Shown here: positions 7,340-32,702 of the stretch, one piece after another
Layout of the letters: the number at the start of each line of letters is the position of its first letter
Numbering within the stretch: position 1 is the first letter of the stretch
Assembly: GCF_030812675.1 (NCBI RefSeq)
Contig: NZ_JAUSTE010000015.1
Coordinates: forward strand, 1-64,000
Source of the DNA: Sinomonas atrocyanea
Lineage (GTDB): Bacteria; Actinomycetota; Actinomycetes; Actinomycetales; Micrococcaceae
Direction of reading: 5' to 3'
Length of the DNA stretch: 64,000 nt
Program-made: the position numbers and the translations under genes
Notes under the pieces: generated by a model
Seen by the model: only the letters and a program-made list of their open reading frames with translations
What the model was told of the DNA's origin: nothing
Databases searched by the model: none

Positions 7340-8348
7340 ACGCCGCTCCCCCGCCGGTCTCCCGCCGACCCGGCGGACGGTGCTGCGGACAGGCCTGGCT
7401 GCCGGGCTCGCGGGCCTGGCCCTGCCCGCAGCGGCCGCCTGTGCGCCCGGCCCGCCGGCCGAGGCCCTCAGGGTGGCCGGCGGGGAGCAGGGCGGCTTCT
7501 ACCTCGAGTTCGCAACCCTCCTTGCGGCCTCCCTCCAGCGGCACGGCGTGGCCCGGACGGCCTCCGCCCTCGAGACCGGCGGGAGCCTCGACAACCTGGA
7601 CCGCCTCGCCAGCGGCGGGGCGACGCTCGCGATCGCCCTCTCGGATGCCGCCGCAGACCGCCTCCGCACCCAGCGGATGCTCGCGCTCGGGAAGGTGTAC
7701 GAGAACTACCTGCACTGCCTGGTCCGCGCGGACAGCGGCATCACGGTCCCCGCAGACCTCGCGGGCCGGACCGTGGCCGTGGGCGACCCCCGCTCCGGCA
7801 CGTCCCTCACGGCCGCCAGGCTCCTCGCGGCCGCGGGACTCGCCACGGCCCCCTCCTCCGCGGCGCACCGGCCGGATCCGCTCCCCCCGCGGACCGTCGG
7901 CGCCGTGGGGCTCGGCCTCAACCAGGGCCTGGCCGCACTGCATGACGGCGCGGTCGAGGCGCTCTTCTGGTCCGGCGGCGTGCCCACGGCGGCCATCACG
8001 GCCTTCGCAGGGGCGACGAGGGCGCGGCTGCTTGACCTCTCCGAGCTCCTCCCGGCACTGCGGTCCCGGTTCGGGGCGTTCTACGACCGGGTGCTCATCC
8101 GGGAGGACAGCTACGCGGGGGTCCCGGCGACCTGGACCGTCGGCGTCGCGAACCTCCTCCTGTGCCGTGAGGACCTGTCCGCGGACGTGGCCCGCGCCGC
8201 CGTCGGCCTGTTGCTCGAGCACTCGGCCGAGCTGGTCCCGGCGGCGAGCCGAGGGGTCCAGTACCTCAGCCCCGAGACGCTCATCAGCACCGCGGGAGTG
8301 CCCCTGCACCCGGGCGCCGAGGACGCCTACCGGATCTTCCACGGTTGA
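7332..8348 (+). CDS. TAXI-family solute-binding lipoprotein, orphan of TRAP permease
   Basis: The 338-residue protein starts inside the kinase gene. Its N-terminus has a Tat-like RRTVLRTGL motif, a hydrophobic stretch and a lipobox-like AAAC, so it should be exported and lipid-anchored. The mature part begins RVAGGEQGGFYLEFATLLA and contains LAGRTVAVGDPRSGTSLTA, the fold signatures of TAXI (TRAP-associated extracytoplasmic immunogenic) binding proteins of about 320 residues. TAXI proteins normally feed DctM-type permeases, but none lies here. The tight overlap with the kinase suggests a sensory accessory role for a small carboxylate. Confidence 0.85.
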   Translation: MAERRSPAGLPPTRRTVLRTGLAAGLAGLALPAAAACAPGPPAEALRVAGGEQGGFYLEFATLLAASLQRHGVARTASALETGGSLDNLDRLASGGATLAIALSDAAADRLRTQRMLALGKVYENYLHCLVRADSGITVPADLAGRTVAVGDPRSGTSLTAARLLAAAGLATAPSSAAHRPDPLPPRTVGAVGLGLNQGLAALHDGAVEALFWSGGVPTAAITAFAGATRARLLDLSELLPALRSRFGAFYDRVLIREDSYAGVPATWTVGVANLLLCREDLSADVARAAVGLLLEHSAELVPAASRGVQYLSPETLISTAGVPLHPGAEDAYRIFHG

Positions 8349-8349
8349 G

Positions 8350-10503
8350 TCAGGCACCCGCCCTGCCGCGCGCCGGCCACCAGGTGCGCTCGCCGAGGTC
8401 GTAGCAGAGGGCGGGAACGAGGAGCGAGCGGACCAGGACCGTGTCCAGCAGGACGCCGAAGGCCACGATGAAGCTGATCTGCGCCAGGAACAGCACGGGG
8501 AGCACACCCAGCGCCGCGAACGTCGCGGCGAGCACCACCCCGGCCGAGGTGATCACCCCGCCGGTGGCCCGCAGACCCCGCAGGATCCCCTCGTGCGTGC
8601 CGTGCCGCAGCGACTCCTCGCGCACTCTGCTCATGAGGAAGATGTTGTAGTCGACCCCGAGGGCCACGAGGAACACGAACCCGAACAGCGGCACCGAGGC
8701 GTCGGCGCCCGGGAAGTGGAACAGCCCGTTGAAGACGAACGCGGAGACGCCGAGCGCCGCGGCGAACGAGGCGACCACCGTGCCCACGAGCAGCACGGGC
8801 GCCACGAGGGAGCGCAGCAGGAGCATGAGGATCACCAGGATCACGGCGAGGACCACGGGGATGATGAGGTTGCGATCGCGGATCGTGGTCTCGTTCGTGT
8901 CCAGGGCCACGGCGGTCGGGCCGCCCACGAGGACGTCGCCGTGCCATCCCGACGCACCGATGTCCGCGCGCAGCCTCTTCACGGTCTCCTCGGCCGCGGC
9001 CGACTCCGGCGCGTCCGAGAGCGTCGCCTCGAGCATCACCAATCCGTCGACGGCGGTCCCCGCCTGCCGCACGGTGCTCACTCCCCGCTCGTGGCTGAGG
9101 AGGCGCACGACGCCGTCCTTCCGGTCCGCGGGTGCGACGACGACGGCAGGTTCGCCGGCCCCGGCCGGGAAGTGGGCGGCGAGGGCCGCCTGGCCGTCCC
9201 GGGCGTCGGAGTGTCCCACCACGAAGTCGCTGCTCGGCACGCCGTCCGCCTTGAAGGCGGCAGCCCCGGCGCCCAGGGCGAGGAGGACCACGAGGGATCC
9301 CGCCCACACGGTCCTCGGCCTCGCCGAGACCAGCCTGGAGACCCGGTGCCAGAGGCCCCGGGGCCTCGACTCCGCCGGGCCGCTCTCCGCCGCCGTCGTG
9401 GCGCGCTCGACCACACTCTTACCGGGCCAGTACGCCACGCGTCCGGCCCAGTACAGGAGGGCCGGCAGCAGGGTGAGCGAGGCGACGTAGGCGAAGCCGA
9501 TCCCGATCGCCGCGACCGGCCCGAGCGCCTTGTTCGCGTTGAGGTCGGAGAGCGTCAGGCACAGGACCGCGGCGATCACGGTCCCCGCCGAGGCACTGAC
9601 GGGTTCGAAGGAGCCGCGCAGCGCCGCCCAGGTGGCCGCCCAGGTGCTCTCGTGCAGGGCGAGCTCCTCCCGGTACCGGGAGACGTACAGGAGCGAGTAG
9701 TCGGTGGCCGCGCCGATCACGAGGATCATGAGGATTCCCTGCGTCTGGCCGGAGAGCAGCAGCATGCCCGCCTTGGCCAGGGCGACCACGAGGGCCATCG
9801 CCCCGGTCAGCGCCATCAGGGAGGTGCCGAGCACCATGAGCGGCAGCAGCGGCGAGCGGTACACGATCACCAGGATCAGGAGCACCACGGCGAGGGCGAC
9901 CGCGAGCAGGAGACCGTCGAGGCCGCTGAAGGCCCCGGAGATGTCGGCGGAGAGCCCGGCTGGACCTGTGACGTTCACGACCACGCCCGCGGGGGACTGG
10001 CCGGCCAGCTGGGCGCGCACGTGCGTGACGGTCTCCGCGACCTTGACGCCCCGGCCGGGGTCGTTGGGCTGCACGGGGATGAAGGCCGTCGCCGCCCTCC
10101 CGTCCTGGGAGGGCAGGAGACGCGGAGTGCCGCCGGGGATCCGGTCCGAGGCGACGCCTGCCTCTCCCGCGAGGCCCGCGACGAGGCCGGTCAGTGTGCG
10201 CAGGTCGTCCGGCGTCAGCGTCGTGGCCTTGGTGAAGACGATGGTGGCCGGAATGGCGTTGCCGTCGCGGAACTTCTTCTCGAGGTCCTGGACCTGCGTG
10301 GCTTCGGCGCTGGCCGGCAGGTGCTCCGAGGCGTCATTGACGGCGACCTTGCCCACCTCGCCGAAGGCGCGGCCGCCGAGTCCGAAGACGGCGAGCCAAG
10401 CCAGGATCAGGACGGCGGGCAGGAGGATGCGGAGCCATCGCGGCGGGCGGAAACGCGGTGCGGAACGGGGCGAACGGGCTGTTCGGGATGCAGTGGTGGT
10501 CAC
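8350..10503 (-). CDS. MMPL-family RND transporter
   Basis: The 717-residue protein has the two-fold MMPL/RND design. After helix 1 (LRILLPAVLILAWLAVFGLGG) there is a periplasmic-type loop to about residue 170, then five or six helices including GAATDYSLLYVSRYREEL. A second soluble loop and a matching helix set with ALGVDYNIFLMSRVREE follow. The Asp-Tyr pairs in these helices are the proton-relay positions of actinobacterial MmpL-type exporters. Substrates in the family include lipids and drugs. It starts at GTG 10503, 35 nt after a CGNR regulator gene on the same strand, so control by that regulator is likely. It ends 1 nt from the TAXI gene in convergent orientation. Confidence 0.88.
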   Translation of the reverse strand: MTTTASRTARSPRSAPRFRPPRWLRILLPAVLILAWLAVFGLGGRAFGEVGKVAVNDASEHLPASAEATQVQDLEKKFRDGNAIPATIVFTKATTLTPDDLRTLTGLVAGLAGEAGVASDRIPGGTPRLLPSQDGRAATAFIPVQPNDPGRGVKVAETVTHVRAQLAGQSPAGVVVNVTGPAGLSADISGAFSGLDGLLLAVALAVVLLILVIVYRSPLLPLMVLGTSLMALTGAMALVVALAKAGMLLLSGQTQGILMILVIGAATDYSLLYVSRYREELALHESTWAATWAALRGSFEPVSASAGTVIAAVLCLTLSDLNANKALGPVAAIGIGFAYVASLTLLPALLYWAGRVAYWPGKSVVERATTAAESGPAESRPRGLWHRVSRLVSARPRTVWAGSLVVLLALGAGAAAFKADGVPSSDFVVGHSDARDGQAALAAHFPAGAGEPAVVVAPADRKDGVVRLLSHERGVSTVRQAGTAVDGLVMLEATLSDAPESAAAEETVKRLRADIGASGWHGDVLVGGPTAVALDTNETTIRDRNLIIPVVLAVILVILMLLLRSLVAPVLLVGTVVASFAAALGVSAFVFNGLFHFPGADASVPLFGFVFLVALGVDYNIFLMSRVREESLRHGTHEGILRGLRATGGVITSAGVVLAATFAALGVLPVLFLAQISFIVAFGVLLDTVLVRSLLVPALCYDLGERTWWPARGRAGA

Positions 10504-21378: not shown

Positions 21379-22596
21379 CTACCCCGCGCTCGCCGCGGCG
21401 AGCGTGGCCTCGACGCCGGCCGGGGAGAGGACGTGCTGGGAGACGAGCTGGCTCGCGCCCATGACGGCGGCCCGCTCGCCCGCGCGGGAGAGGCCGATCC
21501 GCAGGTTCGTGGTCGCCAGCGGCGGCGAGCGGTGGTAGACCACCTCGCGCACCCCGGCCATGACGTACTCCCCCGCGGCGGCCACCGAGCCGCCGATCAC
21601 GATCACGCTGGGGTTGAGCAGGTTCACGCACGTGGCGAGCACCTCGCCGATGTCCCGCCCGGCCTGCCGCAGCGCCTGGACCGCGGCGATGCTGCCGCGC
21701 GAGGCGAGCTCCACGACGTCGGCCCCCGTGGCCGCCTCGACGCCCTGGGCGGCGAGGGAACGGGCGACGGCGGCTCCGGACGCGAGCGCCTCGAGGCACC
21801 CGACGTTGCCGCAGCGGCAGACGACGTCGGCGCCGCGTGCCACACGGACGTGGCCGAGGTCGCCTGCGGTGCCGTCGGCGCCGCGCTGGAGCTGGCCGCT
21901 CGAGATGATCCCGGACCCGATGCCGGTGGCCACCTTGATGAAGAGCAGGTCGTCCACCCCGGGCCAGAACGCGGCCCGCTCGCCGAGGGCCATGATGTTC
22001 ACGTCGTTGTCGACCAGGACCGGCACGGGCAGCGAGCGCTGGACGAACCCGACCACGTCGAACCCGTCCCAGCCGGGCATGATCGGCGGCTTCACCGGCC
22101 GCCCGGTCGCGTGCTCCACGGGCCCCGGCAGCCCGATGCCCACGCCGGCGAGCTGCGACTGGGGGCGCTTGCTGTCGGCGAGGAGCCTGCGCGCGGAGTC
22201 GACCACGTAGCCGAGCACCGCTTCGGGCCCCTGGGCGACCGGCATCTGGGCCCGCCGCTCGGCCAGCACCTCGCCGTTGAGGTCGGTGAGGGCCACGCGC
22301 ACGTGGCTCGCTCCGACGTCGACCGCGAGGACGGTGCGCGCCTGCGGGTGGAAGGCGAAGCGCGACGGCGGGCGGCCGCCGCTCGAGAGGGCCTCGCCGA
22401 CGGACACCACGAGGCCGGAGCCCAGGAGGAGGTCCACCTTGCCCGCCACCGTGGAGCGGGCGAGGCCCGTGGTCATGGCGAGCTCGGCGCGCGTCCACGG
22501 CCTGCCGTCGCGCAGCAGCTGGAAGAGGTCGCCGGCGCGGCCGAGGCTGCCGCCGGCCTCGGGGGCCGCGGGCTGGGCGCTGGGTGGCGACGTCAT
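21379..22596 (-). CDS. ROK-family transcriptional regulator
   Basis: The 405-residue protein combines an N-terminal winged helix-turn-helix (about 18-80, ELAMTTGLARSTVAGKVDLL) with a ROK kinase-fold domain. That domain has the ATP-site strand LAVDVGASHVRVAL, GVGIGLPGPVE, and the zinc site GHVRVARGADVVCRCGNVGCLEAL. Such NagC/XylR-type regulators sense a sugar or sugar phosphate and repress sugar operons. It is divergent from the nine-gene carbohydrate operon with a 152-bp shared region containing a good promoter, so it is the most likely repressor of that operon. Confidence 0.9.
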   Translation of the reverse strand: MTSPPSAQPAAPEAGGSLGRAGDLFQLLRDGRPWTRAELAMTTGLARSTVAGKVDLLLGSGLVVSVGEALSSGGRPPSRFAFHPQARTVLAVDVGASHVRVALTDLNGEVLAERRAQMPVAQGPEAVLGYVVDSARRLLADSKRPQSQLAGVGIGLPGPVEHATGRPVKPPIMPGWDGFDVVGFVQRSLPVPVLVDNDVNIMALGERAAFWPGVDDLLFIKVATGIGSGIISSGQLQRGADGTAGDLGHVRVARGADVVCRCGNVGCLEALASGAAVARSLAAQGVEAATGADVVELASRGSIAAVQALRQAGRDIGEVLATCVNLLNPSVIVIGGSVAAAGEYVMAGVREVVYHRSPPLATTNLRIGLSRAGERAAVMGASQLVSQHVLSPAGVEATLAAASAG

Positions 22597-22632
22597 GCCT
22601 CAGTGATAGCACGCCCCCTTCTGGATGTCACT

Positions 22633-22646
22633 CGCACCAAAGTGCG
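22633..22646. promoter_or_regulatory. possible ROK operator
   Basis: CGCAC-CAAA-GTGCG is a perfect inverted repeat with a 4-nt centre, inside wider arms GTCAC (22627-22631) and GTGAC (22658-22662). It lies just upstream of the -35 box of the carbohydrate operon and 37 bp from the ROK start codon. A dimeric regulator here could control both directions. Confidence 0.5.
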
Positions 22647-22668
22647 CCGATGATGTTGTGACTTTTGC

Positions 22669-22697
22669 TTGACGCTCGGCATAAGTGCTCCTAGGCT
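22669..22697 (+). promoter_or_regulatory. sigma-A-type promoter of the carbohydrate operon
   Basis: TTGACG (22669-22674) and TAGGCT (22692-22697) are separated by 17 nt, close to the actinobacterial housekeeping consensus. Transcription would start near 22704, some 45 nt before the first ATG. Confidence 0.75.
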
Positions 22698-22748
22698 CCG
22701 AGTGAGGCAGCTCACAGGGACTGCCAGCCGAGCGTCGAGGAGCTCCAG

Positions 22749-23813
22749 ATGCCACAGCCCGGAGAAGCCGCCGGATCCCCCACGATCGGCGTCGGCTTCC
22801 TCGGAGCGGGCCCCGTCACCCAGGCCATCCACCTCCCGAGCCTCGCCCGCCTGGGCGAGGCCTTCCACGTCGCCCACGTCATGGACGTGGACGCCGCGGT
22901 CGCGTCGGCCGTCGCGGCCAGGGTCGGCGCGGCGCCGTCGGCCTCCATGGACGCACTGCTCGGCGATCCCGCCGTCGACGTGGTCGCGATCTGCAGCCCG
23001 CACCAGTTCCACGCCGCCCAGGTCATCGCCGCGTGCCGCGCGGGCAAGAAGGCCGTGCTGTGCGAGAAGCCGTTCGCCGTCTCCGCCGAGGAGGCGGCCG
23101 AGATCGCCGCCGTCTCCGCCGAGACCGGCGTGCCGATCCTCGTCGGCGCGATGCACACCTTCGACCCCGGCTGGCTCGCCGCCGAGGAGCTCATGGGCGA
23201 CCTGCCCCGGACCGCGCACACGCTGCGATCCTCGATCGTGCTGCCCCCGAACGCCCGCTTCGAGGACTTCGCGACCGAGGTGATCGCCCGCCCCGCCGCC
23301 CCCCACCGGGACCTGGGCGACCCCGCCGTCGTCGCCGCGATGCTCGAGGGCGGCATCCTGGGCCTCGCAATCCACGACCTTCCCCTCGTGCGCCGCTTCG
23401 TGCCGGACTTCGCGGACCTCGAGGTCCTGCGCGCCGAGATCGTGCGGCCGTTCGGCTACGTCATCCTCGTGCGCGCCGGGGGCCGGACCATCGAGCTCAC
23501 CGCCGCGATGACGTCCACCTGGAAGCCGGACTGGACCTTCGAGGCCGTGGGGCCCGACTCGGCGCTCACGGTCACGTTCACACCCTCGTACGTCCAGGCC
23601 GGCTCCGCGGTCGCCGAGCTCACCACCGGGGGCCGCACCCGGACCGCCGGGCCGTTCGGGCACAACGGCTACGAGGGCGAGTGGCGGCGGATCGCCGGCA
23701 TCGTGGCGGGCACGGAGCGCGCCCCGGAGGCCGCCGCACTCATCGACGACCTCCGCTTCGCCCTCGCGATCGTCGACGGCACCCGCTCCCACATCACGGA
23801 GGCCGCCGCATGA
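22749..23813 (+). CDS. Gfo/Idh/MocA-family oxidoreductase (first of three)
   Basis: A 354-residue NAD(P)-dependent dehydrogenase with the Rossmann motif GVGFLGAGPVTQAIHLP (about 14-30). The family EKP motif is in AVLCEKPFAVS (Glu106-Lys107-Pro108, Lys being catalytic) and is followed by an alpha/beta substrate domain. The usual G-x-H-x3-D region reads GGILGLAIHDLPLVRRF. GAGGAG lies 6 nt upstream of the ATG. First gene of the operon, overlapping the next by 4 nt. Oxidation or reduction of a sugar or cyclitol is the family role; it is the most divergent of the three homologues here. Confidence 0.88.
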   Translation: MPQPGEAAGSPTIGVGFLGAGPVTQAIHLPSLARLGEAFHVAHVMDVDAAVASAVAARVGAAPSASMDALLGDPAVDVVAICSPHQFHAAQVIAACRAGKKAVLCEKPFAVSAEEAAEIAAVSAETGVPILVGAMHTFDPGWLAAEELMGDLPRTAHTLRSSIVLPPNARFEDFATEVIARPAAPHRDLGDPAVVAAMLEGGILGLAIHDLPLVRRFVPDFADLEVLRAEIVRPFGYVILVRAGGRTIELTAAMTSTWKPDWTFEAVGPDSALTVTFTPSYVQAGSAVAELTTGGRTRTAGPFGHNGYEGEWRRIAGIVAGTERAPEAAALIDDLRFALAIVDGTRSHITEAAA

Positions 23814-24616
23814 GCCCGCACCCCACGTTCACGGCCAGCGACGCCTCGGCCCCCGGTCTCGCCGAGATCGCCGCCTCGCTCCCGCTCTCGCTCGCCCCCG
23901 CCGACGCCGACGCGGCGCCGCAGCTCGCGGCGGTCGCCGGGTCGCCCGGATGGGCCCGGCGCGCCGGCGAGCTGCTCGCCGCCGACGCCCTCGCCGTCGT
24001 CGTCGGCCCGCCTACGGCGCACGACGACGCCACCCACCTCCCGGACGACGACGCCGGACGGGCAGTGATCGCCTGGGAATTCGCCTCCAATCCCGGGGTG
24101 GCCGCCGCGGCCGAGGCCGCGGGGCCGCTGCGGAGGCGCGCGGTGCTGGCCGAGTGCCGGGTCACCGTGCCCGACGCCGCCCTCCTCGACGGGGCGCTCC
24201 TCGATGCGCTCACGGCCTGCGGGCGGGTCTTCAGCGCGTTCGGCTCCCTCGGGGCGCTCCACGCCGGCCCCGGCGGGCGGCACTACGCCGGCCGGCTTGA
24301 CGGCGGGGCCCCGCTCTCGCTCGCCCTCGTCGTCAGCGCCGCCGCGCCCGCGGCCCTGTCCCTGCGCCTCCTGACCGAGGACGGCGGCCTCACCGCTTAC
24401 GTGCCGTCCGCCGCCACGGCTGCCCCGGCCGAGACCCGGATCGTCGGTCCGGACGGCGAGCGGCTGCTGCCGACCCTCTGGGAGACGTCCCGCCGCGCCA
24501 GCTGGCGGCGGGCCATTGCCCTCGCCGCCGGGGGCTCGGCCTCCGGGGACGTCGCCGAGTTCCACCGCACGGCCGCGCTCGTCCCGCCTCCGGCGGGCGG
24601 CGCGGGCCGCCCCTGA
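23810..24616 (+). CDS. hypothetical protein in the carbohydrate operon
   Basis: A 268-residue Ala/Leu/Asp-rich soluble protein, not recognised. It begins at the ATGA overlap with the preceding dehydrogenase gene, with GGAGG 7 nt upstream, so the two are co-translated. It lacks a signal peptide, membrane segments and known catalytic motifs. Short conserved-looking stretches are VIAWEFASNPGVAAAAEAAG, VFSAFGSLGALHAGPGG and LLPTLWETSRRASWRRAI. It may be a partner or chaperone of the first dehydrogenase, or a divergent oxidoreductase C-domain. Function unknown. Confidence 0.7.
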   Translation: MSPHPTFTASDASAPGLAEIAASLPLSLAPADADAAPQLAAVAGSPGWARRAGELLAADALAVVVGPPTAHDDATHLPDDDAGRAVIAWEFASNPGVAAAAEAAGPLRRRAVLAECRVTVPDAALLDGALLDALTACGRVFSAFGSLGALHAGPGGRHYAGRLDGGAPLSLALVVSAAAPAALSLRLLTEDGGLTAYVPSAATAAPAETRIVGPDGERLLPTLWETSRRASWRRAIALAAGGSASGDVAEFHRTAALVPPPAGGAGRP

Positions 24617-24671
24617 GTTCCCGTTTCGACCGCCATCCATCCGAGCACCTCAATGACGAAGGACACACGCC

Positions 24672-25979
24672 ATGACCGCTTCCCGCACCACGTTCTCCCG
24701 CAGGGGCTTCCTCGGCCTCGCCGCCGCGGCCGCCGCCGTACCCGCGCTCGCGGCGTGCGGCGGCGGCTCCGCCTCCGGCGGGGGCAACGGGGAGATCAAG
24801 TTCTGGGACATGCCGTGGGGCACCCCGGCCTACAACGACGCGGCGAAGAAGCTCGTCGAGGGCTACCAGCCGGCCTCCGGCAACCTCAAGGCGAACTACC
24901 AGATCATCCAGTGGAACAACTTCTACCAGACGTTCTCCTCGGCCATCGCGTCCAAGACCGGCCCCGCCGTCTCGACCGGCGGCGGCTTCCAGGCCTTCCA
25001 GTTCGACCAGCAGGGGCAGATCGCCCACGCCGACGGCGTGATCGACGCAATGAAGAAGAACGGGATGTACGACGACCTCCTGCCCGGCGTCCTCGATCCG
25101 TTCAAGTCCGCCAACGGGTACGTCGCGGTCCCGTGGCAGCTGGACATGCGCGTCTTCTGGTACCGCAAGTCGCTCTTCGACCAGGCGGGCGTGGCCCTGC
25201 CGAAGGACTGGGCCACGCTGCTCGAGGCGGGCAAGGCGCTCAAGAAGATCGGGGCGTTCGGCTTCATGACCGGTGCCGGAGCCGGCAACAACTACGGCAA
25301 CCACTCGATGATCATGATGATGGTCAACAACGGCGGCGGCGTCTGGTCCAAGGACGGCCAGCTCGACCTCATGAACGACCGCAACGTCGAGGCCATCGAA
25401 TTCCTGCTCGAGCTGCGTTCCAACGGCATCATCGACCCCGCCTGCCTGGGCTACACGACGGACAACATGTCGGCGCAGTGGAAGGACAAGAAGGCCGGGT
25501 TCGGGCTCTTCCAGGTCGGGGTGCCCCAGCGCGTGGGCGACACCTCCGGCGACATCATGGTCGCCGACCCGATCGCCGGGCCGCACGGGGACAAGGCCAC
25601 GATCGTCTTCCCGAACAACATCATGATGTACAAGAACACCCCCTCGCAGGCGTCCTCGGAGGCCTTCCTGGTCAACTACCTCGGCCAGCTCAAGGAGCTC
25701 TGGAAGCAGAAGCTCATGAACTCGCTGCCGGTCTTCAAGTCGATCACCGAGATCCCGGAGTTCGCCAACGATCCGAACAACGTCAAGATCGTCAAGGACT
25801 GGCAGCCCATCGCCAAGACCTTCGCCGCCCAGGGCTCCGCCCTCAACGCCAACCTCGCAGCGCTGGACGGCGGCCAGGCCCTGAACCAGTTCACGCAGAC
25901 GGTCCTCACCGGCCAGACGGACGCCAAGAGCGCGCTGCAGACGTTCCAGACCAGCCTCCAGTCGGTCATCAAGTCCTGA
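24672..25979 (+). CDS. carbohydrate ABC transporter substrate-binding lipoprotein
   Basis: The 435-residue cluster B (MalE-like) binding protein has a Tat-type SRRGFLGL motif at residues 10-17 and a lipobox ALAAC, followed by a Gly/Ser linker. The mature part begins EIKFWDMPWGTPAYNDAAKK. The hinge-region pattern GVALPKDWATLLEAGKAL is typical of sugar-binding components. The many aromatic residues (for example WNNFYQTF and VFWYRKSLF) suit sugar stacking. It is followed by two permease genes. Confidence 0.92.
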   Translation: MTASRTTFSRRGFLGLAAAAAAVPALAACGGGSASGGGNGEIKFWDMPWGTPAYNDAAKKLVEGYQPASGNLKANYQIIQWNNFYQTFSSAIASKTGPAVSTGGGFQAFQFDQQGQIAHADGVIDAMKKNGMYDDLLPGVLDPFKSANGYVAVPWQLDMRVFWYRKSLFDQAGVALPKDWATLLEAGKALKKIGAFGFMTGAGAGNNYGNHSMIMMMVNNGGGVWSKDGQLDLMNDRNVEAIEFLLELRSNGIIDPACLGYTTDNMSAQWKDKKAGFGLFQVGVPQRVGDTSGDIMVADPIAGPHGDKATIVFPNNIMMYKNTPSQASSEAFLVNYLGQLKELWKQKLMNSLPVFKSITEIPEFANDPNNVKIVKDWQPIAKTFAAQGSALNANLAALDGGQALNQFTQTVLTGQTDAKSALQTFQTSLQSVIKS

Positions 25980-25993
25980 CCGGGGTGCCCACC

Positions 25994-26950
25994 ATGACAT
26001 CAACAGCCGGCATCGCCCGGGCCCGCAAGGGCCTGGGCCCGGGCGGCCCCGGCCGCGCCGCAGAACCCAATCGGAGGAGCAGGCTCAGCACCCAGGCGAA
26101 GCGGACCTTCTTCTGGCTCCTCCTGCCCTCGGTCATCCTGCTCGTCCTCATCCACGGCTACCCGCTCGTGTACGCCGCGGTCCAGGCCACGCACAACGGG
26201 TCCCTCATCGAGACCGGCCAGTTCGTGGGGCTCGAGAACTTCGCCGCCGTGCTGAACTCGCCGAAGTTCTGGAAGGCCGCCGAGTTCACGCTCGTCTTCA
26301 CCATCGTGGGCGTGTTCGGCTCGTGGCTCGTGGGCATGGGCCTGGCCCTGCTGCTGCGAACCCGCATCCCCGCGGGCGGTACGTTCAAGGTGCTCCTCCT
26401 GTTGCCCTGGGTCGTGCCCATCGTGGTCTCCTCGACGGCGTGGAACTGGCTCGTGGCCACGCCGACGAGCCCGATCCCCACGATCTTCCGGGCGCTCGGC
26501 CTCGGCGCGCCCTACTTCCTCGCCGACCCGACGCTCGCCGCCATCATGGTGTGCCTGTTCAAGGTGTGGGTCAGCTTCCCCTTCATGATGATGATGACGA
26601 GCTCCGCCCTGGCCTCCGTGGACGGCACCGTCTACGAGGCGGCGAGCATGGACGGGGCCACCCGCTGGCAGCAGTTCACCGGCATCACGCTGCCGCTGAT
26701 CGCGCGCTCCACCTACATCTCGTGGATCCTCATGACGATCTTCTGCGTCAACGACTTCCCGACGATCTACCTCCTCACCGGCGGCGGACCGGTCGACGCG
26801 ACCACCTCGCTCGTGGTGCTGGCCTACCGCACGGTGTTCCAGGACTTCCAGACCGGCACCGGCGTGGCGATCGCCTTCCTCATGACCATGACCCTCGTGG
26901 TGGTCTCAGCCCTCCTCTACCGCCAGATCCGAAAGTCGAGCGTCGAATGA
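25994..26950 (+). CDS. sugar ABC transporter permease, MalF type
   Basis: The 318-residue inner-membrane protein has six helices and the EAA loop YEAASMDGATRWQQFTGITLP, which contacts the ATPase. The N-terminal 40 residues are basic and unstructured. It starts 14 nt after the binding-protein gene and overlaps the next permease gene by 4 nt (ATGA). It forms the translocation channel as a heterodimer with the next product. Confidence 0.92.
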   Translation: MTSTAGIARARKGLGPGGPGRAAEPNRRSRLSTQAKRTFFWLLLPSVILLVLIHGYPLVYAAVQATHNGSLIETGQFVGLENFAAVLNSPKFWKAAEFTLVFTIVGVFGSWLVGMGLALLLRTRIPAGGTFKVLLLLPWVVPIVVSSTAWNWLVATPTSPIPTIFRALGLGAPYFLADPTLAAIMVCLFKVWVSFPFMMMMTSSALASVDGTVYEAASMDGATRWQQFTGITLPLIARSTYISWILMTIFCVNDFPTIYLLTGGGPVDATTSLVVLAYRTVFQDFQTGTGVAIAFLMTMTLVVVSALLYRQIRKSSVE

Positions 26951-27855
26951 GCACCGTCCTGCACACGCACACGGCCACCGCTGCAGGCGGGGTTAACGCC
27001 GACGGAACGGGCGCGCGGCCCTCCCGGAAGCGCCGCACCGTTTCCGAGGCCGACCTGCGCGGGCGCTGGTGGCGCTTCGCGCTCATCCTCGCGATCACCG
27101 CCGTGGTCCTCATCCCGATCCTCGTCGTCGTGGTCCTCGCCTTCAGCCCGTCGTCGACGAGCAGCTCCACGGGGCCCACGTTCGAGAACTTCACGAACGT
27201 GTTCCAGGAGACCCTGGCCTCGACCTGGCTCAAGAACAGCCTCGTCGTGACCCTCGCGACCGTCCTCGTCTCCGTGGCGGTCGCCGCGCCGGCCGGCTAC
27301 GTGCTCTCCCGTGGGCGCAGCCGCGCCGTGGCAGGGTATTCGCTGCTGCTGTTCGTCATGCAGTCGCTGCCGATCATCACCTCGGTGGTCCCGCTGTTCA
27401 TCCTCTTCGCGACGATGGGCCTCGTGGACAACCTCCTGGGCCTGACGATCGTCTACGTGGCCTCCACGATGACCGTGGCGACCTGGATGATGGCCGCCTA
27501 CTTCGACTCGATCCCGGCCAGCCTCGAGGAGGCCTCCTGGATCGACGGGTGCTCGGTCTTCGGCTCGTTCCGGAAGATCGTGCTGCGCAACAGCCTCCCC
27601 GGCGTGCTCTCGACCGCGATCTTCGCCTTCCTCCTGGCCTGGAACGACTACCTCGTGGCCATCGTGTTCCTGCGCTCGAACGAGATCTTCACCCTCCCCA
27701 TGGGCGTGCAGTCGTTCTTCCAGCAGAACCAGACCGACTGGGGCGGCGTGATGGCCCTCGCCGTCGTGATGATGCTCCCGCCGATCATCGTCTTCGCCGC
27801 GCTGAACAAGTACTTCAGCGTGGGCGGCATCGGCGGCTCGCTCGCCGGCCGCTGA
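26947..27855 (+). CDS. sugar ABC transporter permease, MalG type
   Basis: The 302-residue inner-membrane protein has six helices and the EAA loop LEEASWIDGCSVFGSFRKIVL. A 40-residue hydrophilic N-terminus precedes helix 1. It is the partner of the upstream permease. No nucleotide-binding subunit is encoded in the operon, so a shared MsiK/UgpC-type ATPase from elsewhere in the genome must energise uptake, as is usual for actinobacterial sugar importers. Confidence 0.92.
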   Translation: MSTVLHTHTATAAGGVNADGTGARPSRKRRTVSEADLRGRWWRFALILAITAVVLIPILVVVVLAFSPSSTSSSTGPTFENFTNVFQETLASTWLKNSLVVTLATVLVSVAVAAPAGYVLSRGRSRAVAGYSLLLFVMQSLPIITSVVPLFILFATMGLVDNLLGLTIVYVASTMTVATWMMAAYFDSIPASLEEASWIDGCSVFGSFRKIVLRNSLPGVLSTAIFAFLLAWNDYLVAIVFLRSNEIFTLPMGVQSFFQQNQTDWGGVMALAVVMMLPPIIVFAALNKYFSVGGIGGSLAGR

Positions 27856-27912
27856 CACGCCCTCCTCCCCCAGCACTCCCCCGCCCACGACCTCTGAGAG
27901 GACACTGTCCCC

Positions 27913-28680
27913 ATGACGTACTCCGTGCAGCTCTACTCCGTCCGCGACGCGATCGAGGCGGACCTCCCGGGCACGATCGCCCGGCTGGCCCAGATCGGCT
28001 ACACCCAGGTGGAGCCCTACAACTTCGCCGCCCGCGCCGACGAGCTCGCCGCGGCCTTCGCCGAGCACGGCATCACGGCCCCGACGGCGCACGCGCCGCT
28101 GCTGTCCGCAGACCAGGACGAGATCTTCGCCGCGGCGACGCGGCTGGGCATCGGCACCGTGATCGACCCGTACCTTCCCGCCGAGCACTGGCAGGACGAG
28201 GCGACCATCCGCGACACGGCGGCCCGGCTCAACGCCGCCGCCAAGAAGGGCGCCGAGCACGGCATCCGCGTGGGCTACCACAACCACGACTGGGAGATCT
28301 CCTCCAGAATCGGGGGCACCACAGCGCTCGAGTTCTTCGCGGGGCTGCTCGACCCCGAGCTCGTCCTCGAGGTCGACACCTACTGGGCCGCCGTGGGCGG
28401 GGAGGACCCCGCCGCGCTCCTGGCGCGCCTCGGCGACCGCGTCGTCGCGCTCCACCTCAAGGACGGGCCGGTGGACCACGACAAGAAGGCCCAGCTCCCC
28501 GCGGGCCAGGGCCGGCTCGACATCTGGGGCGTCATCGCCGCCGCGACGAGCCTCGAGGTCGGCGTCGTGGAGTTCGACGACTACGCGGGGGACATCTTCG
28601 AGGGCGTCGCGGAGTCCCTGCGCTACCTTGAGGCCGGCGAGCCGTCGTCGGCCGAGGCGGCCTCGGGGGCCGCGAAGTGA
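27913..28680 (+). CDS. sugar phosphate isomerase/epimerase family TIM barrel (first)
   Basis: The 255-residue AP2Ec-type barrel has metal-site candidates GYHNHDWE (His123, His125), EVDTYW (Asp155), HLKDG (His181, Lys183) and VEFDDY (Glu220). These proteins (IolE/IolI and hydroxypyruvate-isomerase relatives) catalyse divalent-metal-dependent isomerisation, dehydration or elimination on keto sugars. GAGAGGAC lies upstream of the ATG. It overlaps the next dehydrogenase gene by 4 nt (GTGA). In a 3-keto sugar route it could be the eliminase or the hydratase. Confidence 0.88.
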   Translation: MTYSVQLYSVRDAIEADLPGTIARLAQIGYTQVEPYNFAARADELAAAFAEHGITAPTAHAPLLSADQDEIFAAATRLGIGTVIDPYLPAEHWQDEATIRDTAARLNAAAKKGAEHGIRVGYHNHDWEISSRIGGTTALEFFAGLLDPELVLEVDTYWAAVGGEDPAALLARLGDRVVALHLKDGPVDHDKKAQLPAGQGRLDIWGVIAAATSLEVGVVEFDDYAGDIFEGVAESLRYLEAGEPSSAEAASGAAK

Positions 28681-29795
28681 GCCGCGGGCCGGTCGGCGTC
28701 GCCGTCATCGGCGCGGGCGTCATCTCCAAGCAGTACCTCGACAACCTCACCGCGTTCCCCGACGTGAAGGTCCACGTCATCGCCGACCTCTTCCCCGAGA
28801 CGGCCAAGGCCCGCGCCGAGGAGTACGGGATCGCCGAGCACGGCACCCCGGAGCTCGCGCTGAATCACCCCGACGTGGAGATCATCGTCAACCTCACGAT
28901 CCCGGCCGCGCACGTCGAGGTCGCCACCGCCGCCGTCCGGGCGGGCAAGCACGTGTGGACGGAGAAGCCGTTCTCCCTCGACCGCGCCAGCGGCCTCGCG
29001 CTCCTGAAGGAGGCGGACGACGCCGGCCTGCGGCTCGGGTGCGCGCCGGACACCTTCCTCGGCGCGGGCCTGCAGACCGCCCGGCGCGTGATCGAGCGGG
29101 GCGACATCGGCGTCCCGCTCACGGCCCAGACGGTCTTCCAGACCCCGGGCCCGGAGTCCTGGCACCCGAACCCCGCGTTCCTGTTCCAGCCGGGCGCCGG
29201 CCCGCTGTTCGACATGGGGCCGTACTACCTCACGGCCCTCGTCCAGACCTTCGGCAGCGTGCGCCGGGTCGCCGCCGTGGGCTCGACGTCGCGCGCCACC
29301 CGCGTGATCGGCTCGGGCCCGAAGGCGGGCGAGGAGTTCACCGTGGAGGTCCCCACGCACGTGAGCGCCCTGGCCCAGTTCGAATCGGACGCGTCCTCCC
29401 ACAGCATCTTCAGCTTCGAGTCCCCCCGGACCCGGATGGGCTTCGTGGAGATCACCGGGACCGAGGCGACCCTGTCGCTGCCGGACCCGAACTACTTCGA
29501 CGGCGAGCTGCAGATCTGCAGGGCCGGCGAGAAGGAGTGGACCGCCGTCCCCACGGCCGGCCCCGCCAACGGGCGCGGCATGGGCGTGCTGGACATGGCC
29601 CGCTCGATCCGGGCCCGCCAGCCCCACCGCGCCACCGGGCAGCTGGCCTACCACGTGCTCGACACCATGGTCTCGATCGCGGAATCGGTCGACTCCGGCG
29701 AGTTCGTCCCGGTGGCGAGCAGCGCGCCGTCGTCCGCTCCCCTGCCCGAGGACTGGGCGCCCACCAAGGCGACCCTGGACGGGGTCCGGGCATGA
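28677..29795 (+). CDS. Gfo/Idh/MocA-family oxidoreductase (second)
   Basis: A 372-residue NAD(P)-dependent dehydrogenase that starts at a GTG overlapping the previous stop. The Rossmann motif is VAVIGAGVISKQYLDN, and the EKP motif is in HVWTEKPFSLD (Glu96-Lys97-Pro98). The substrate domain has PLFDMGPYYLTALVQTFG, where family members often have a G-x3-D-x2-H-type signature. It overlaps the third dehydrogenase gene by 4 nt (ATGA). In a 3-keto sugar pathway it would suit the final reductase or the first oxidation. Confidence 0.88.
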   Translation: MSRGPVGVAVIGAGVISKQYLDNLTAFPDVKVHVIADLFPETAKARAEEYGIAEHGTPELALNHPDVEIIVNLTIPAAHVEVATAAVRAGKHVWTEKPFSLDRASGLALLKEADDAGLRLGCAPDTFLGAGLQTARRVIERGDIGVPLTAQTVFQTPGPESWHPNPAFLFQPGAGPLFDMGPYYLTALVQTFGSVRRVAAVGSTSRATRVIGSGPKAGEEFTVEVPTHVSALAQFESDASSHSIFSFESPRTRMGFVEITGTEATLSLPDPNYFDGELQICRAGEKEWTAVPTAGPANGRGMGVLDMARSIRARQPHRATGQLAYHVLDTMVSIAESVDSGEFVPVASSAPSSAPLPEDWAPTKATLDGVRA

Positions 29796-30931
29796 GCCCC
29801 GGGACCGGGGCCCTCGGGGTCGCGGTGATCGGGTACGCGTTCATGGGCCGGGCCCACTCGCACGCGTGGCGCAACGTCTCTGCATTCTTCGACGTCCCGG
29901 CCATCGAGCAGAGGGTCCTCGTGGGCCGCCACGCCCAGGACGTCGCCGAGGCCGCCGCGAAGCACGGCTGGGCCGAGTCCGCGACCGACTGGCGCGAGGT
30001 GATCGCCCGCGACTACGTGCACATCGTGGACATCTGCGCCCCGGGGTGGATGCACGCCGAGATCGCCGTCGCCGCGCTCGAGGCGGGCAAGCACGTGCTC
30101 GTGGAGAAGCCGCTCGCCAACACCCTGGCCGAGGCGGAGCGGATGGCCGAGGCCGCCCGCGCGGCGCGGGGGCGCGGCGTCGCCTCGATGGTCGGCTTCA
30201 CGTACCGGCGCGTCCCGGCGCTCGCGTACGCGAAGCAGCTCATCGCGGCCGGGCGCCTCGGCACGGTCCGGGAGGTCCGCGCCTCCTACCTGCAGGACTG
30301 GCTCGCCGACGAGGAGGCGCCCATGACGTGGCGGCTGCGCAAGGAGACGGCTGGCTCCGGGGCGCTCGGGGACATCGCCTCCCACGCGGTCGACCAGGTC
30401 CAGTACCTCCTCAACGACACCGTCACGGAGGCCTCCGGCCGGCTGCACACGTTCGTGGGCCGCCGGCCCGGCCCGGACGGGCCCGAGGATGTGACGGTCG
30501 ACGACGCCGCCTGGGCCACGCTGTCTCTCGCCTCCGGGGCGGTCGCCTCGGTCGAGGTCTCCCGCGTGGCGACGGGGCGGAAGAACTCCCTGCGGATCGA
30601 GGTCTACGGCTCCGGCGGCGCGCTCGCCTTCGACCTTGAGCGGCCCGGCGAGCTCGAGTTCCTCGACGCCACCGCGCCGGCCGAAGAACAGGGCTTCCGC
30701 CGGATCGTCGTGACCGAGCCCAGCCACCCCTACATGGGCGCCTGGTGGCCGCAGGGCCACATGATCGGCTGGGAGCACGCCTTCACCCATCAGGCGCGCG
30801 ACTTCCTGCTGGCGATCCGGGACGGGAACGCCCCGTCGCCCTCGTTCGAGGACGGCCTGCAGGTCCAGCGCGTCCTCGCCGCCATCGAGGAGTCCGCCGC
30901 CGCCAAGTCCGCCACCGTCCACGTCGGCTGA
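29792..30931 (+). CDS. Gfo/Idh/MocA-family oxidoreductase (third), levoglucosan-dehydrogenase-like
   Basis: A 379-residue dehydrogenase. The N-terminus VAVIGYAFMGRAHSHAWRNVSAFF resembles the G-x-G-FMG-x-AHS-x-A-x-R pattern of C3-sugar dehydrogenases such as levoglucosan dehydrogenase. EKP lies in HVLVEKPLANT (Glu105-Lys106-Pro107), and the catalytic-domain signature is GALGDIASHAVDQVQYLL with Asp and His. The recognition is by memory of motif pattern, so the substrate remains open (anhydro sugar, glucoside or cyclitol). An epimerase gene follows 48 bp downstream. Confidence 0.85.
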   Translation: MSPGTGALGVAVIGYAFMGRAHSHAWRNVSAFFDVPAIEQRVLVGRHAQDVAEAAAKHGWAESATDWREVIARDYVHIVDICAPGWMHAEIAVAALEAGKHVLVEKPLANTLAEAERMAEAARAARGRGVASMVGFTYRRVPALAYAKQLIAAGRLGTVREVRASYLQDWLADEEAPMTWRLRKETAGSGALGDIASHAVDQVQYLLNDTVTEASGRLHTFVGRRPGPDGPEDVTVDDAAWATLSLASGAVASVEVSRVATGRKNSLRIEVYGSGGALAFDLERPGELEFLDATAPAEEQGFRRIVVTEPSHPYMGAWWPQGHMIGWEHAFTHQARDFLLAIRDGNAPSPSFEDGLQVQRVLAAIEESAAAKSATVHVG

Positions 30932-30947
30932 GCGAAGACCCCACGCT

Positions 30948-30967
30948 GGTCGAGCGAAGTAGAAACC
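30948..30967. repeat. GGTCGAGCGAAG-type intergenic element
   Basis: GGTCGAGCGAAGTAGAAACC lies in the 48-bp gap between the third dehydrogenase and second isomerase genes. It is a near-palindromic element (GGT-CGA ... -GAAACC) of a type scattered between actinobacterial genes. Related sequence is repeated inside dnaX (39300-39533). Confidence 0.55.
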
Positions 30968-30979
30968 CTAGGAGATCCC

Positions 30980-31984
30980 ATGCCCCGCCCGTTCACCCTG
31001 TTCACCGGCCAGTGGGCCGACCTGACGCTCGAGGAGGTCGCCGGGCTCGCCGCGGGCTGGGGCTACGACGGCCTCGAGATCGCCGTCTCCGGCGAGCACC
31101 TCGACGCCGCCCGCTGGGACGATCAGGCGTACGTCGACGAGCGCCTGGGCATCCTCGCCCGCCACGGCCTGGAGCTCTACGCGATCTCGAACCACCTCAA
31201 GGGCCAGGCCGTGTGCGACGACCCGATCGACTTCCGCCACCAGGGAATCGTCGGCTCCGCCGTCTGGGGCGACGGCGACCCCGAAGGCGTCCGGCGCCGC
31301 GCCGCCGAGGACCTCAAGGACACCGCCCGCCTGGCCAGGGCGCTCGGGGTCAAGACCGTGGTCGGGTTCACCGGCTCGAGCATCTGGCAGTACGTGGCCA
31401 TGTTCCCGCCCGTCCCCGCCGCCGTGATCGACGCCGGCTACCAGGACTTCGCCGACCGCTGGAACCCCATCCTGGACGTCTTCGACGAGTGCGGGGTCCG
31501 GTTCGCCCACGAGGTCCACCCCTCCGAGATCGCCTACGACTACGTCACCACCCAGCGCGCCCTCGAGGCCATCGGGCACCGGCCCGCGTTCGGACTGAAC
31601 TGGGACCCCTCCCACATGATGTGGCAGGGCCTGGACCCCGTCGCGTTCATCACCGACTTCCCCGACCGGATCTACCACGTGGACTGCAAGGACACCCGGA
31701 TGCGCATGGGCAACGGCCGGGCCGGGATCCTCTCCTCCCACCTGCCCTGGGGCGACCCCCGCCGCGGCTGGGACTTCGTCTCCGCCGGCCGCGGCGACGT
31801 CCCCTGGGAGGACTGCTTCCGCGCCCTGACCGCCATCGGCTACGACGGGCCCATCTCGGTCGAATGGGAGGACGCCGGCATGGACCGCCTCGTCGGGGCC
31901 CCCGAGGCCCTCGCCGCCCTGAAGAAGTTCGACTTCGCCCCCGCCACCGCCTCCTTCGACGCCGCCTTCAGCAACCAGACCTGA
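30980..31984 (+). CDS. sugar phosphate isomerase/epimerase family TIM barrel (second)
   Basis: The 334-residue barrel is longer than its paralogue upstream. Candidate metal ligands are Glu178 (HEVHPSEI), Asp209 and His212 (NWDPSHMM), His233 (YHVDCKD) and Glu295 (VEWEDAG). The length and pattern resemble the catalytic subunits of C-glycoside deglycosidases and eliminases of 3-keto glycosides, but no DUF6379-type small subunit is seen. AGGAG lies 5 nt before the ATG. Last enzyme gene of the operon. Confidence 0.88.
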   Translation: MPRPFTLFTGQWADLTLEEVAGLAAGWGYDGLEIAVSGEHLDAARWDDQAYVDERLGILARHGLELYAISNHLKGQAVCDDPIDFRHQGIVGSAVWGDGDPEGVRRRAAEDLKDTARLARALGVKTVVGFTGSSIWQYVAMFPPVPAAVIDAGYQDFADRWNPILDVFDECGVRFAHEVHPSEIAYDYVTTQRALEAIGHRPAFGLNWDPSHMMWQGLDPVAFITDFPDRIYHVDCKDTRMRMGNGRAGILSSHLPWGDPRRGWDFVSAGRGDVPWEDCFRALTAIGYDGPISVEWEDAGMDRLVGAPEALAALKKFDFAPATASFDAAFSNQT

Positions 31985-32029
31985 CCCCGCGCCCGACGCG
32001 CCGTGGAGCAGCGGGCCCTAAGCCTCTGC

Positions 32030-32058
32030 CATTTTTGGTGACACATCGCCGTAAAATG
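32030..32058. promoter_or_regulatory. palindrome over the TetR promoter
   Basis: CATTTTTGGTGA and TCGCCGTAAAATG form an imperfect inverted repeat. Its right arm contains TAAAAT (32052-32057), a likely -10 box only 6 nt before the start codon. This suggests an autoregulated and possibly leaderless or short-leader mRNA. Confidence 0.5.
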
Positions 32059-32063
32059 AAGGT

Positions 32064-32702
32064 ATGCCCCGCATCCAGGCCGAGTCGAACGCAGCCCAGC
32101 GAGCGCTCACGCAGCGCCGGATCCTCGACGCGTTCGGCCAGCTCCTGTTCACCCGCGGGCTGCCCGGGCTGACGATGACGGATGTCGCCCGCCAGGCCGG
32201 GGTCGGCCGGACTGCCGTGTACAACTACTACGCGGACATGGAGGAGCTGCTGATCGGCTACGCGCTCGACGAGACCGGTCGCTTCCTCGGCGACCTCAAG
32301 GCCAAGCTGTCGGGGCTCGAGAATCCGATCGACCGCCTGGCCGTGTACATCCGCGCGCAGGTCGAGGACCTCTCCCGCCGCCATCTGCCTCCCGGGCCGG
32401 CCATGCGGGCGGTGCTCTCGCCGTCGTCCTTCGCCAAGCTGGGCGACCACGTCGGCGAGCTCAACGCACTCCTGACCCAGATCCTCCGCGATGCGATGGC
32501 GCAGGGCTACCTCCCCGAGGCGGACGTCGACGAACTCGTGGGGCTCGTGCACGGCTCCCTGACGGCGAGCGCCGACCGGGGCCGCGGCGAGGACGAGGCG
32601 CCCGACGACGACGCCGAGCGCCGCACGGACGCCACCGTCCGCTTCATCCAGCTCGGCGTGGGCGCCAGGTTCGACCCCGAGGGCCGGCCCGTGCGCCGCT
32701 GA
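32064..32702 (+). CDS. TetR-family transcriptional regulator
   Basis: A 212-residue regulator. The N-terminal helix-turn-helix (about 17-63) reads RRILDAFGQLLFTRGLPGLTMTDVARQAGVGRTAVYNYY in two segments, with the typical T-x-x-x-VA-x-x-AGV pattern. The C-terminal ligand domain is all-helical and ends in an Asp/Glu/Arg-rich segment. A palindrome covers its own promoter, suggesting autorepression. It is 79 bp downstream of the carbohydrate operon in the same direction and may add a second control to it, or regulate an unrelated target. Confidence 0.88.
   Translation: MPRIQAESNAAQRALTQRRILDAFGQLLFTRGLPGLTMTDVARQAGVGRTAVYNYYADMEELLIGYALDETGRFLGDLKAKLSGLENPIDRLAVYIRAQVEDLSRRHLPPGPAMRAVLSPSSFAKLGDHVGELNALLTQILRDAMAQGYLPEADVDELVGLVHGSLTASADRGRGEDEAPDDDAERRTDATVRFIQLGVGARFDPEGRPVRR

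Follow-up and report, generated by a model that had tools for sequence, protein, structure and literature searches.

A Sinomonas atrocyanea operon predicted to cleave glucosides without hydrolysis, with a dehydrogenase gene paired to an apparently degenerate relative

We analysed a 64,000-nucleotide stretch of Sinomonas atrocyanea DNA (NCBI RefSeq assembly GCF_030812675.1, contig NZ_JAUSTE010000015.1, positions 1 to 64,000; hereafter the window), in which an operon with a sugar importer and a divergent ROK-family regulator encodes three Gfo/Idh/MocA oxidoreductases (gfo1, gfo2 and gfo3), two TIM-barrel proteins of the PF01261 family (TIM1 and TIM2) and a 268-residue protein (unk268). We consider it probable that this operon supports non-hydrolytic cleavage of a glucoside and that the products of gfo1 and unk268 assemble into a heteromer. 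The ROK-controlled operon would import a glucoside, probably an O-linked D-glucoside, from which glucose would be released without hydrolysis: gfo3 would use NAD+ to oxidise the glucosyl unit at C3; TIM1, as a metal-dependent eliminase, would expel the aglycone to leave 2-hydroxy-3-keto-D-glucal; TIM2 would add water to give 3-keto-D-glucose; and reduction to glucose would fall to gfo2, to the gfo1-unk268 pair or to gfo3 acting in reverse. In the predicted heteromeric Gfo/Idh oxidoreductase the cofactor site would lie on gfo1, and unk268, as a decayed subunit, may influence the shape of the active site or form a lid over it. A modest number of known systems cleave glycosides non-hydrolytically via 3-keto sugars, and among gut bacteria a broad pathway of the 3-keto type has been described.

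Operon layout and conservation

The genes gfo1 to TIM2 lie on the plus strand, overlapping or closely spaced, with the ROK gene opposite, in the following order:

21379..22596, minus strand: ROK-family regulator, divergent (PF00480, 204 bits)
22597..22748, no strand: intergenic control region between the ROK gene and the operon, read from sequence
22749..23813, plus strand: gfo1, Gfo/Idh/MocA oxidoreductase (PF01408, 77.2 bits; residues; own clade, 100/100)
23810..24616, plus strand: unk268, apparently a degenerate Gfo/Idh protein (pseudo-oxidoreductase), its start overlapping the gfo1 stop (ATGA)
24672..25979, plus strand: SBP, solute-binding lipoprotein of the sugar ABC importer (PF01547, SBP_bac_1, 77 bits)
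25994..26950, plus strand: perm1, permease 1 of the sugar ABC importer (assignment from the sequence as read and from gene position; outside the Pfam scan)
26947..27855, plus strand: perm2, sugar ABC importer permease 2 (PF00528, BPD_transp_1, 66 bits)
27913..28680, plus strand: TIM1, predicted 3-keto-O-glucoside beta-eliminase (PF01261; 8bvk, 75 bits)
28677..29795, plus strand: gfo2, predicted 3-keto-sugar oxidoreductase (PF01408, 57.8 bits, and PF22725; own clade, 100/100)
29792..30931, plus strand: gfo3, predicted NAD-dependent glucoside C3-dehydrogenase (PF01408, 74.9 bits; 4h3v and 6a3f matches; tree)
30980..31984, plus strand: TIM2, predicted 2-hydroxy-3-keto-glucal hydratase (PF01261; 2zds and 8ro4 matches)
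32064..32702, plus strand: TetR-family regulator, a neighbour outside the conserved unit (PF00440, TetR_N)

The Pfam scan covered ten of the eleven window proteins, leaving out perm1, and all three Gfo/Idh/MocA proteins exceed the PF01408 cut-off of 24 bits. An earlier sequence-only reading of this DNA had described three such dehydrogenases, an importer and a divergent ROK regulator in one operon, with neither a kinase nor a glycoside hydrolase; the Pfam matches and the conserved loci bear out the first point, and the ten scanned proteins yielded no kinase or glycoside-hydrolase family besides ROK itself, which also matches sugar-kinase models at scores far below their cut-offs. Nor did the same ten proteins contain a GMC or FAD family, as expected of a flavin-dependent GlycDH, or the C-glycoside deglycosidase beta subunit CGDB (PF19906), which was likewise found nowhere in the S. 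atrocyanea genome. Importers without an ATPase of their own can borrow one.

Conservation was assessed by a contig scan with a gfo1 alignment, from which the best 80 of 94 related loci were retained and to which L016 was added, giving 81 distinct loci (L014 and L015 duplicate L047 and L082 and were not counted); the sample is biased in that three of the gfo1 search sequences had originally been found via unk268. All nine genes from gfo1 to TIM2 occur in 53 of these loci, each except unk268 at no less than 60% identity, and the ROK gene accompanies them at the same threshold in 51 of the 53. Several of the 28 incomplete loci stop at a contig edge, and the gene absences are in part contig ends. 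By contrast, the TetR gene is present in 3 of the 81, so that of the operon originally delimited at 22597-32702 the gfo1-to-TIM2 portion stands and the TetR gene falls outside. Identity of perm1 across the complete loci is 78-99%, and compared with S. atrocyanea DS1018 (L017; tblastn) identity is 86% for gfo1 and 79-99% for the remaining genes of the operon. The loci carrying this operon type come mostly from the Arthrobacter group. Two Streptomyces genomes (L021 and L092) hold the operon without gfo2, and the 78-86% identity of their gfo1 and TIM2 suggests horizontal transfer. In L027 and L069 gfo3 and TIM2 form a separate unit adjoining a ROK gene, and in L091 gfo1 is frameshifted.

The control region yielded only 6-nt palindromes, none of them convincing as a ROK operator. 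Upstream of gfo1 in L028 (9847-9872) there is an 8-nt inverted repeat, ACTTTTGC, with arms 10 bases apart, which is possibly part of a ROK site; a single arm of it occurs in the window near 22670.

Predicted eliminase, dehydrogenases and shared hydratase gene

Enzymes of the PF01261 family bind metal. TIM1 matches structure 8bvk at 75 bits and also aligns with 8tcs and 8tcd (names from the database). According to the accessible part of PMC10628242, 8bvk is the Agrobacterium O-glycoside eliminase AtOGE, with His134 as catalytic residue and His132, Asp163 and His189 as metal ligands. TIM1 residues H123, H125, D155 and H181 align with AtOGE H132, H134, D163 and H189, i.e. TIM1 carries the AtOGE-type set, and the catalytic histidine and the metal ligands are invariant in all seven aligned TIM1 sequences. 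Beyond the aligned part, E220 is the likely counterpart of AtOGE E233. No resemblance of TIM1 to the levoglucosan enzyme LgdB1 was detected, there being no match above 60 bits in the levoglucosan (lgd) locus of the same genome (L008) and none above 80 bits in L008, L117 or L118.

TIM2 matches the structures 2zds, a 'putative DNA-binding protein' (529 bits), and 8ro4 (145 bits), deposited under the database name 2-hydroxy-3-keto-glucal hydratase. The Gfo/Idh proteins were placed in a tree of 30 rows, with the reading frame chosen by blastp. In this tree gfo3, lgdA, lgdC and one further row from the same genome (gfo_C7d) form a single clade (100/99), within which gfo3, lgdA and gfo_C7d group together (95/97) and gfo3 is recovered as a group of its own (76/94). 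gfo3 has Lys106, Asp194 and His198; its closest structure is 4h3v (455 bits), followed by the levoglucosan dehydrogenase 6a3f (282 bits). gfo2, which carries the EKP lysine (Lys97) and an FDMGPYY motif at 178, and gfo1 are separate clades (100/100 each) outside the one that contains lgdC, and gfo3 falls on the LgdA side; none of the three is thus placed as an LgdC-type reductase. gfo3 adjoins TIM2 in 48 of 59 TIM2 loci (23 of 29 for the loci from the class draw). With gfo3 in the LgdA/LgdC clade, TIM1 AtOGE-like and TIM2 hydratase-like, the enzymes are consistent with the oxidise-eliminate-hydrate-reduce set that the sequence-only reading had proposed.

The five enzymes all match IolG or IolE models weakly, and an operon for inositol or a related polyol, with IolG/IolE-type oxidation and dehydration, was therefore weighed. 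Three IolG-like rows from the same genome enter the tree, one as the neighbour of gfo2 (93/91) and two in a weakly supported position beside gfo1 (78/80), and on Agrobacterium plasmids gfo1 and unk268 adjoin a protein resembling IolE (121 bits, where the cut-off is 290). Nevertheless, the best window scores (IolG 119.6 of 355, IolE 43.7 of 290) are far under the NCBIfam cut-offs, of which none for inositol is reached, the clades of gfo1, gfo2 and gfo3 exclude all three IolG-like rows, and TIM1 and TIM2 are closer to eliminase and hydratase structures. The firm inositol clustering that would have counted against a 3-keto route was not found, and we regard the inositol alternative as very improbable. 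Elsewhere in the genome (C7; L009 1-20000 and L010) lies another cluster dense in Gfo/Idh and PF01261 genes, the highest IolG-like matches of the genome among them.

The lgd operon L008, on another contig, contains LgdA, which at 750.9 bits is the only protein of the genome above the equivalog cut-off of 650, together with LgdB1-type and LgdC-type genes and a second TIM2 gene (7151-8155). This copy and the window TIM2 (30980-31984) are 98.8% identical in DNA. Their alignment begins 14 bases ahead of the start and ends 4 bases past the stop, and the 1.5 kb flanking it on each side shows no further match. Genome G396 has a similar pair (97.9%), and G784 has three copies (95.9-96.9%), one each in a window-type operon, an lgd operon and a C-glycoside operon, in the last of which CGDB is accompanied by a pyranose-oxidase-like enzyme and by another PF01261 protein, read as CGD alpha. 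Across the three genomes the near-identity is confined to the gene with 0-14 bases ahead of it and 1-10 behind; the flanks of the operon and lgd copies in G396 and G784 have in addition a single 68% stretch in common upstream, consistent with the relatedness of the gfo3 and lgdA genes. Between our genome (G000) and G396 the operon copies are 96.0% and the lgd copies 94.6% identical, below the identity within each genome, and in a FastTree phylogeny the copies group by genome (G000 pair 0.993, G396 pair 0.989, G784 trio 0.990; order inside the trio 0.379). The TIM2 copies are thus under concerted evolution between unlinked operons. The gfo3-TIM2 pair also follows CGDB in L137, L138, L167 and L168. 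In Sinomonas sp. ASV486 (L169 2589-9419) a C-glycoside-type operon holds a pyranose-oxidase-like enzyme, CGDB, a second PF01261 protein, an LgdC-like Gfo and a third TIM2 copy.

In the accessible parts of the respective papers, the levoglucosan route passes through 2-hydroxy-3-keto-glucal and (presumably) 3-keto-glucose (PMC7676230), and the C-glycoside route through 2-hydroxy-3-keto-glucal and 3-keto-glucose (PMC10628242). Since the predicted hydratase TIM2 is common to operons of both kinds, the most parsimonious interpretation has the window operon yielding the same intermediate, 2-hydroxy-3-keto-glucal.

That shared gene also makes a second operon for levoglucosan or another 1,6-anhydro sugar an alternative to be weighed, the more so as gfo3 is near the levoglucosan dehydrogenase in the tree (95/97) and as, in the accessible part of PMC10066097, proteins of two genome regions are raised on levoglucosan in Paenarthrobacter strain LG01. 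No LgdB2 is reported in that part of the paper, the LG01 lgd locus (L117) has no TIM2 within the 19.5 kb examined, and the nearer of two LG01 TIM2 relatives (81%) lies in a window-type operon (L028) on the same contig as lgd, the other (67%) being on another contig. The window-type operon of LG01 may therefore lend its hydratase to levoglucosan degradation, and its TIM2 is a candidate for the LgdB3 of PMC10066097. On the other side, gfo3 scores 322.6-326.9 bits against the levoglucosan-dehydrogenase equivalog NF052479, below the cut-off that LgdA of the same genome passes at 751; TIM1 lacks an lgd-locus counterpart, as noted above; and the importer here has two permeases and no ATPase, whereas the lgd operon reads as an ATPase and one permease. 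Moreover, lgdA was found in only 9 of the 23 genomes that bear this operon or a closely similar one (E up to 1e-150; an internal stop interrupts it in one of these, and drafts may miss the gene), which speaks against levoglucosan as the sole substrate. TIM2 is present in 22 of the 23, the exception (G800) having it in two pieces in L060, and CGDB in 8. A limited literature search found no paper linking Sinomonas to levoglucosan. An anhydro sugar, one of the substrates suggested by the sequence-only reading, is accordingly not supported, the levoglucosan dehydrogenase of this genome belonging to another operon, and we judge the levoglucosan alternative improbable. A C-glycoside was dropped as substrate for want of CGDB. 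The OGE-like eliminase favours an O-linked D-glucoside, which from the sequences would be the best-fitting substrate.

The gfo1-unk268 pair

Gfo/Idh enzymes have a usual catalytic set of Lys, Asp and His. In gfo1 the GxGxxG motif, the EKP lysine (Lys107) and His209 are present and the usual Asp is missing (residues in 26 homologues). The start of unk268 overlaps the stop of gfo1 by the same amount (-4) in 76 of the 81 loci. The window unk268 has no Pfam match, and those among 59 relatives (PA 16, DUF6193 14, best E 0.0028) are scattered and weak and were rejected as noise; PF01408 is absent from the families matched. Because a profile search of PDB sequences gave only three weak Gfo/Idh-type matches (E 0.066, 0.08 and 0.48), the assignment of unk268 rests on hhalign, the search of open reading frames (ORFs) and the fold. 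The unk268 profile reaches gfo1 among the ORFs and neither gfo2 nor gfo3, and structure prediction gives a Gfo/Idh fold, with fold matches including 3db2, 5ya8, 6a3f and 4h3v. Unlike these Gfo/Idh/MocA chains of 299-382 residues, unk268 has 268, and, in contrast to the enzymes of the family, it is mostly without GxGxxG, without the catalytic lysine and without a Pfam match: the position of the EKP lysine holds K in 0 of 59 relatives, and GxGxx[GAP] is found in 6 of 59, against 24 of 26 for gfo1. Thus unk268, which the sequence-only reading had rightly singled out as a new part without guessing its kind, appears to be a degenerate Gfo/Idh protein, a decayed dehydrogenase, which appears to stay paired in many bacteria with a related and apparently intact gfo1. 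The adjacency and overlap of the genes suggest that the two proteins may bind each other.

It is conceivable, if the less likely case, that unk268 is no enzyme subunit and instead works separately, in binding, as a chaperone or as a regulator, while happening to retain the Gfo/Idh fold. Its fast evolution would suit such a protein: over the 53 complete loci unk268 identity is 28-79% against 64-86% for gfo1, and its dN/dS against the two nearest relatives (0.39-0.41) is the highest in the operon. The adjacency to and overlap with gfo1, kept also on Agrobacterium plasmids, and the ORF search that recovers gfo1 speak for the enzyme subunit. The fold matches of unk268 further include the NAD-dependent glycoside hydrolases 8qc5, 8qc6 and 8qc8 (Arthrobacter, Flavobacterium), which raises the prospect that gfo1 is itself an NAD-dependent glycosidase, performing oxidation, elimination and re-reduction in one Gfo/Idh site, with the TIM barrels serving a second substrate. 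These three are not among the best 60 of 73 gfo1 sequence matches, and gfo1 is without the usual Asp and is accompanied by varied TIM barrels, so that this alternative seems to us remote.

The pair is also found on Agrobacterium plasmids (L119, and L120 of pTiCFBP4996), in the order LacI, SBP, two permeases, ATPase, TIM barrel, gfo1 and a 'hypothetical protein', the latter matching the unk268 profile (E 2e-15 and 2.7e-14):

L120 (pTiCFBP4996) 6105-10135: TIM barrel, gfo1, unk268-like protein and gfo2-type gene behind a sugar importer
L119 7138-9814: TIM barrel, gfo1 and unk268-like protein behind a sugar importer

Barrels ahead of gfo1 vary elsewhere too, being IolE-like in L016 (112 bits), PF01261 proteins in L075 and L082, and a relative of the Agrobacterium barrel (45%) in L090. 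The Jiangella barrel in L082 (9107-10000) begins with an apparent Tat-type signal peptide; one step may therefore be extracytoplasmic there. In L137, L138 and L122 gfo1-unk268 adjoins ROK and genes whose reading suggests the breakdown of aromatic compounds, and in L137 and L138 CGDB-gfo3-TIM2 is nearby. An apparent gfo1-unk268 fusion in L087 was rejected, as a run of N separates the two. In random draws unk268 is rare: it was found in 10 of 394 genomes of the same class by profile (three of them merely weak partial matches), in 7 of 394 by single-sequence search (three partial), and in 1 of 385 from the class of the Novosphingobium genome G398, namely G398 itself, a figure that is a lower bound, since that scan scores few candidates per genome and the Agrobacterium type was missed or not drawn.

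Weight of the evidence and relation to known systems

Several observations weigh against the proposed route. The sequence-only reading held that both barrels keep full metal ligands; this is so for TIM1, whereas TIM2 has Asp235 where the hydratase 8ro4 has His. Among 394 genomes of the class, 140 carry TIM2 relatives, and the family could therefore serve other uses. gfo1 lacks the usual Asp, which leaves its activity unproven, and on the Agrobacterium plasmids gfo1-unk268 adjoins the IolE-like barrel in place of TIM1. gfo2 is undetected in L021, L051 and L092, and L084 (15866-16058) retains just two short fragments of it in the interval from TIM1 to gfo3, as though the gene were being lost, or through an assembly fault; since all four loci keep gfo1, TIM1, gfo3 and TIM2, gfo2 is not always needed. 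On its own, gfo3 might perform both redox steps, in which case gfo1-unk268 and gfo2 might serve another use, e.g. on the aglycone. The oxidise-eliminate-hydrate-reduce scheme as a whole is drawn from sequence and predicted fold.

The proposed route shares its four-step logic with the lgdA-lgdB1-lgdB2-lgdC route for levoglucosan in Bacillus smithii (PMC7676230) and with the form of it in Paenarthrobacter (PMC10066097), as given in the accessible parts of those papers; gfo3 belongs to the LgdA/LgdC clade and TIM2 is a near-copy of a gene beside lgdA in three genomes. The window differs in that gfo3 is under the LgdA equivalog cut-off, TIM1 is not LgdB1-like, lgdC is missing, and a gfo1-unk268 pair and gfo2 are added. 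In the Agrobacterium O-glycoside pathway (AtOGE, AtHYD and a Gfo reductase; PMC10628242, in part), AtOGE is the closest among solved structures to TIM1, which retains its active site; TIM2 has a relative in the hydratase 8ro4, which would be of the AtHYD type only by assumption. The window differs from that pathway, as far as the available text describes it, in lacking the flavoenzyme GlycDH, C3 oxidation being predicted to use NAD and a Gfo/Idh protein, and in its extra gfo1-unk268 pair. With C-glycoside deglycosidase operons (CGD alpha/beta and a pyranose-oxidase-like oxidase) the window has TIM2 (L169) or gfo3-TIM2 (L137, L138, L167 and L168) in common, and differs in that its predicted eliminase is TIM1 and CGDB is absent, as described above.

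Only tentatively do we advance a wider proposal, in which gfo1-unk268 would represent a heteromeric oxidoreductase family whose fast-evolving, duplicated and cofactor-less Gfo/Idh subunit tunes glycoside acceptance, feeding a modular system where C-glycoside, levoglucosan and O-glucoside eliminases share one hub hydratase kept alike by gene conversion. A limited literature search found no pseudoenzyme subunit described in the Gfo/Idh/MocA family. If true, the pseudo-dehydrogenase would be such a subunit, with bearing on how substrate range is set. The operon type would add a widespread member to the systems of non-hydrolytic 3-keto glycoside cleavage, one in which the intermediate can be guessed from genetics alone through a hydratase common to levoglucosan and C-glycoside operons, and the window-type TIM2 suggests a hydratase gene for levoglucosan degraders without LgdB2.

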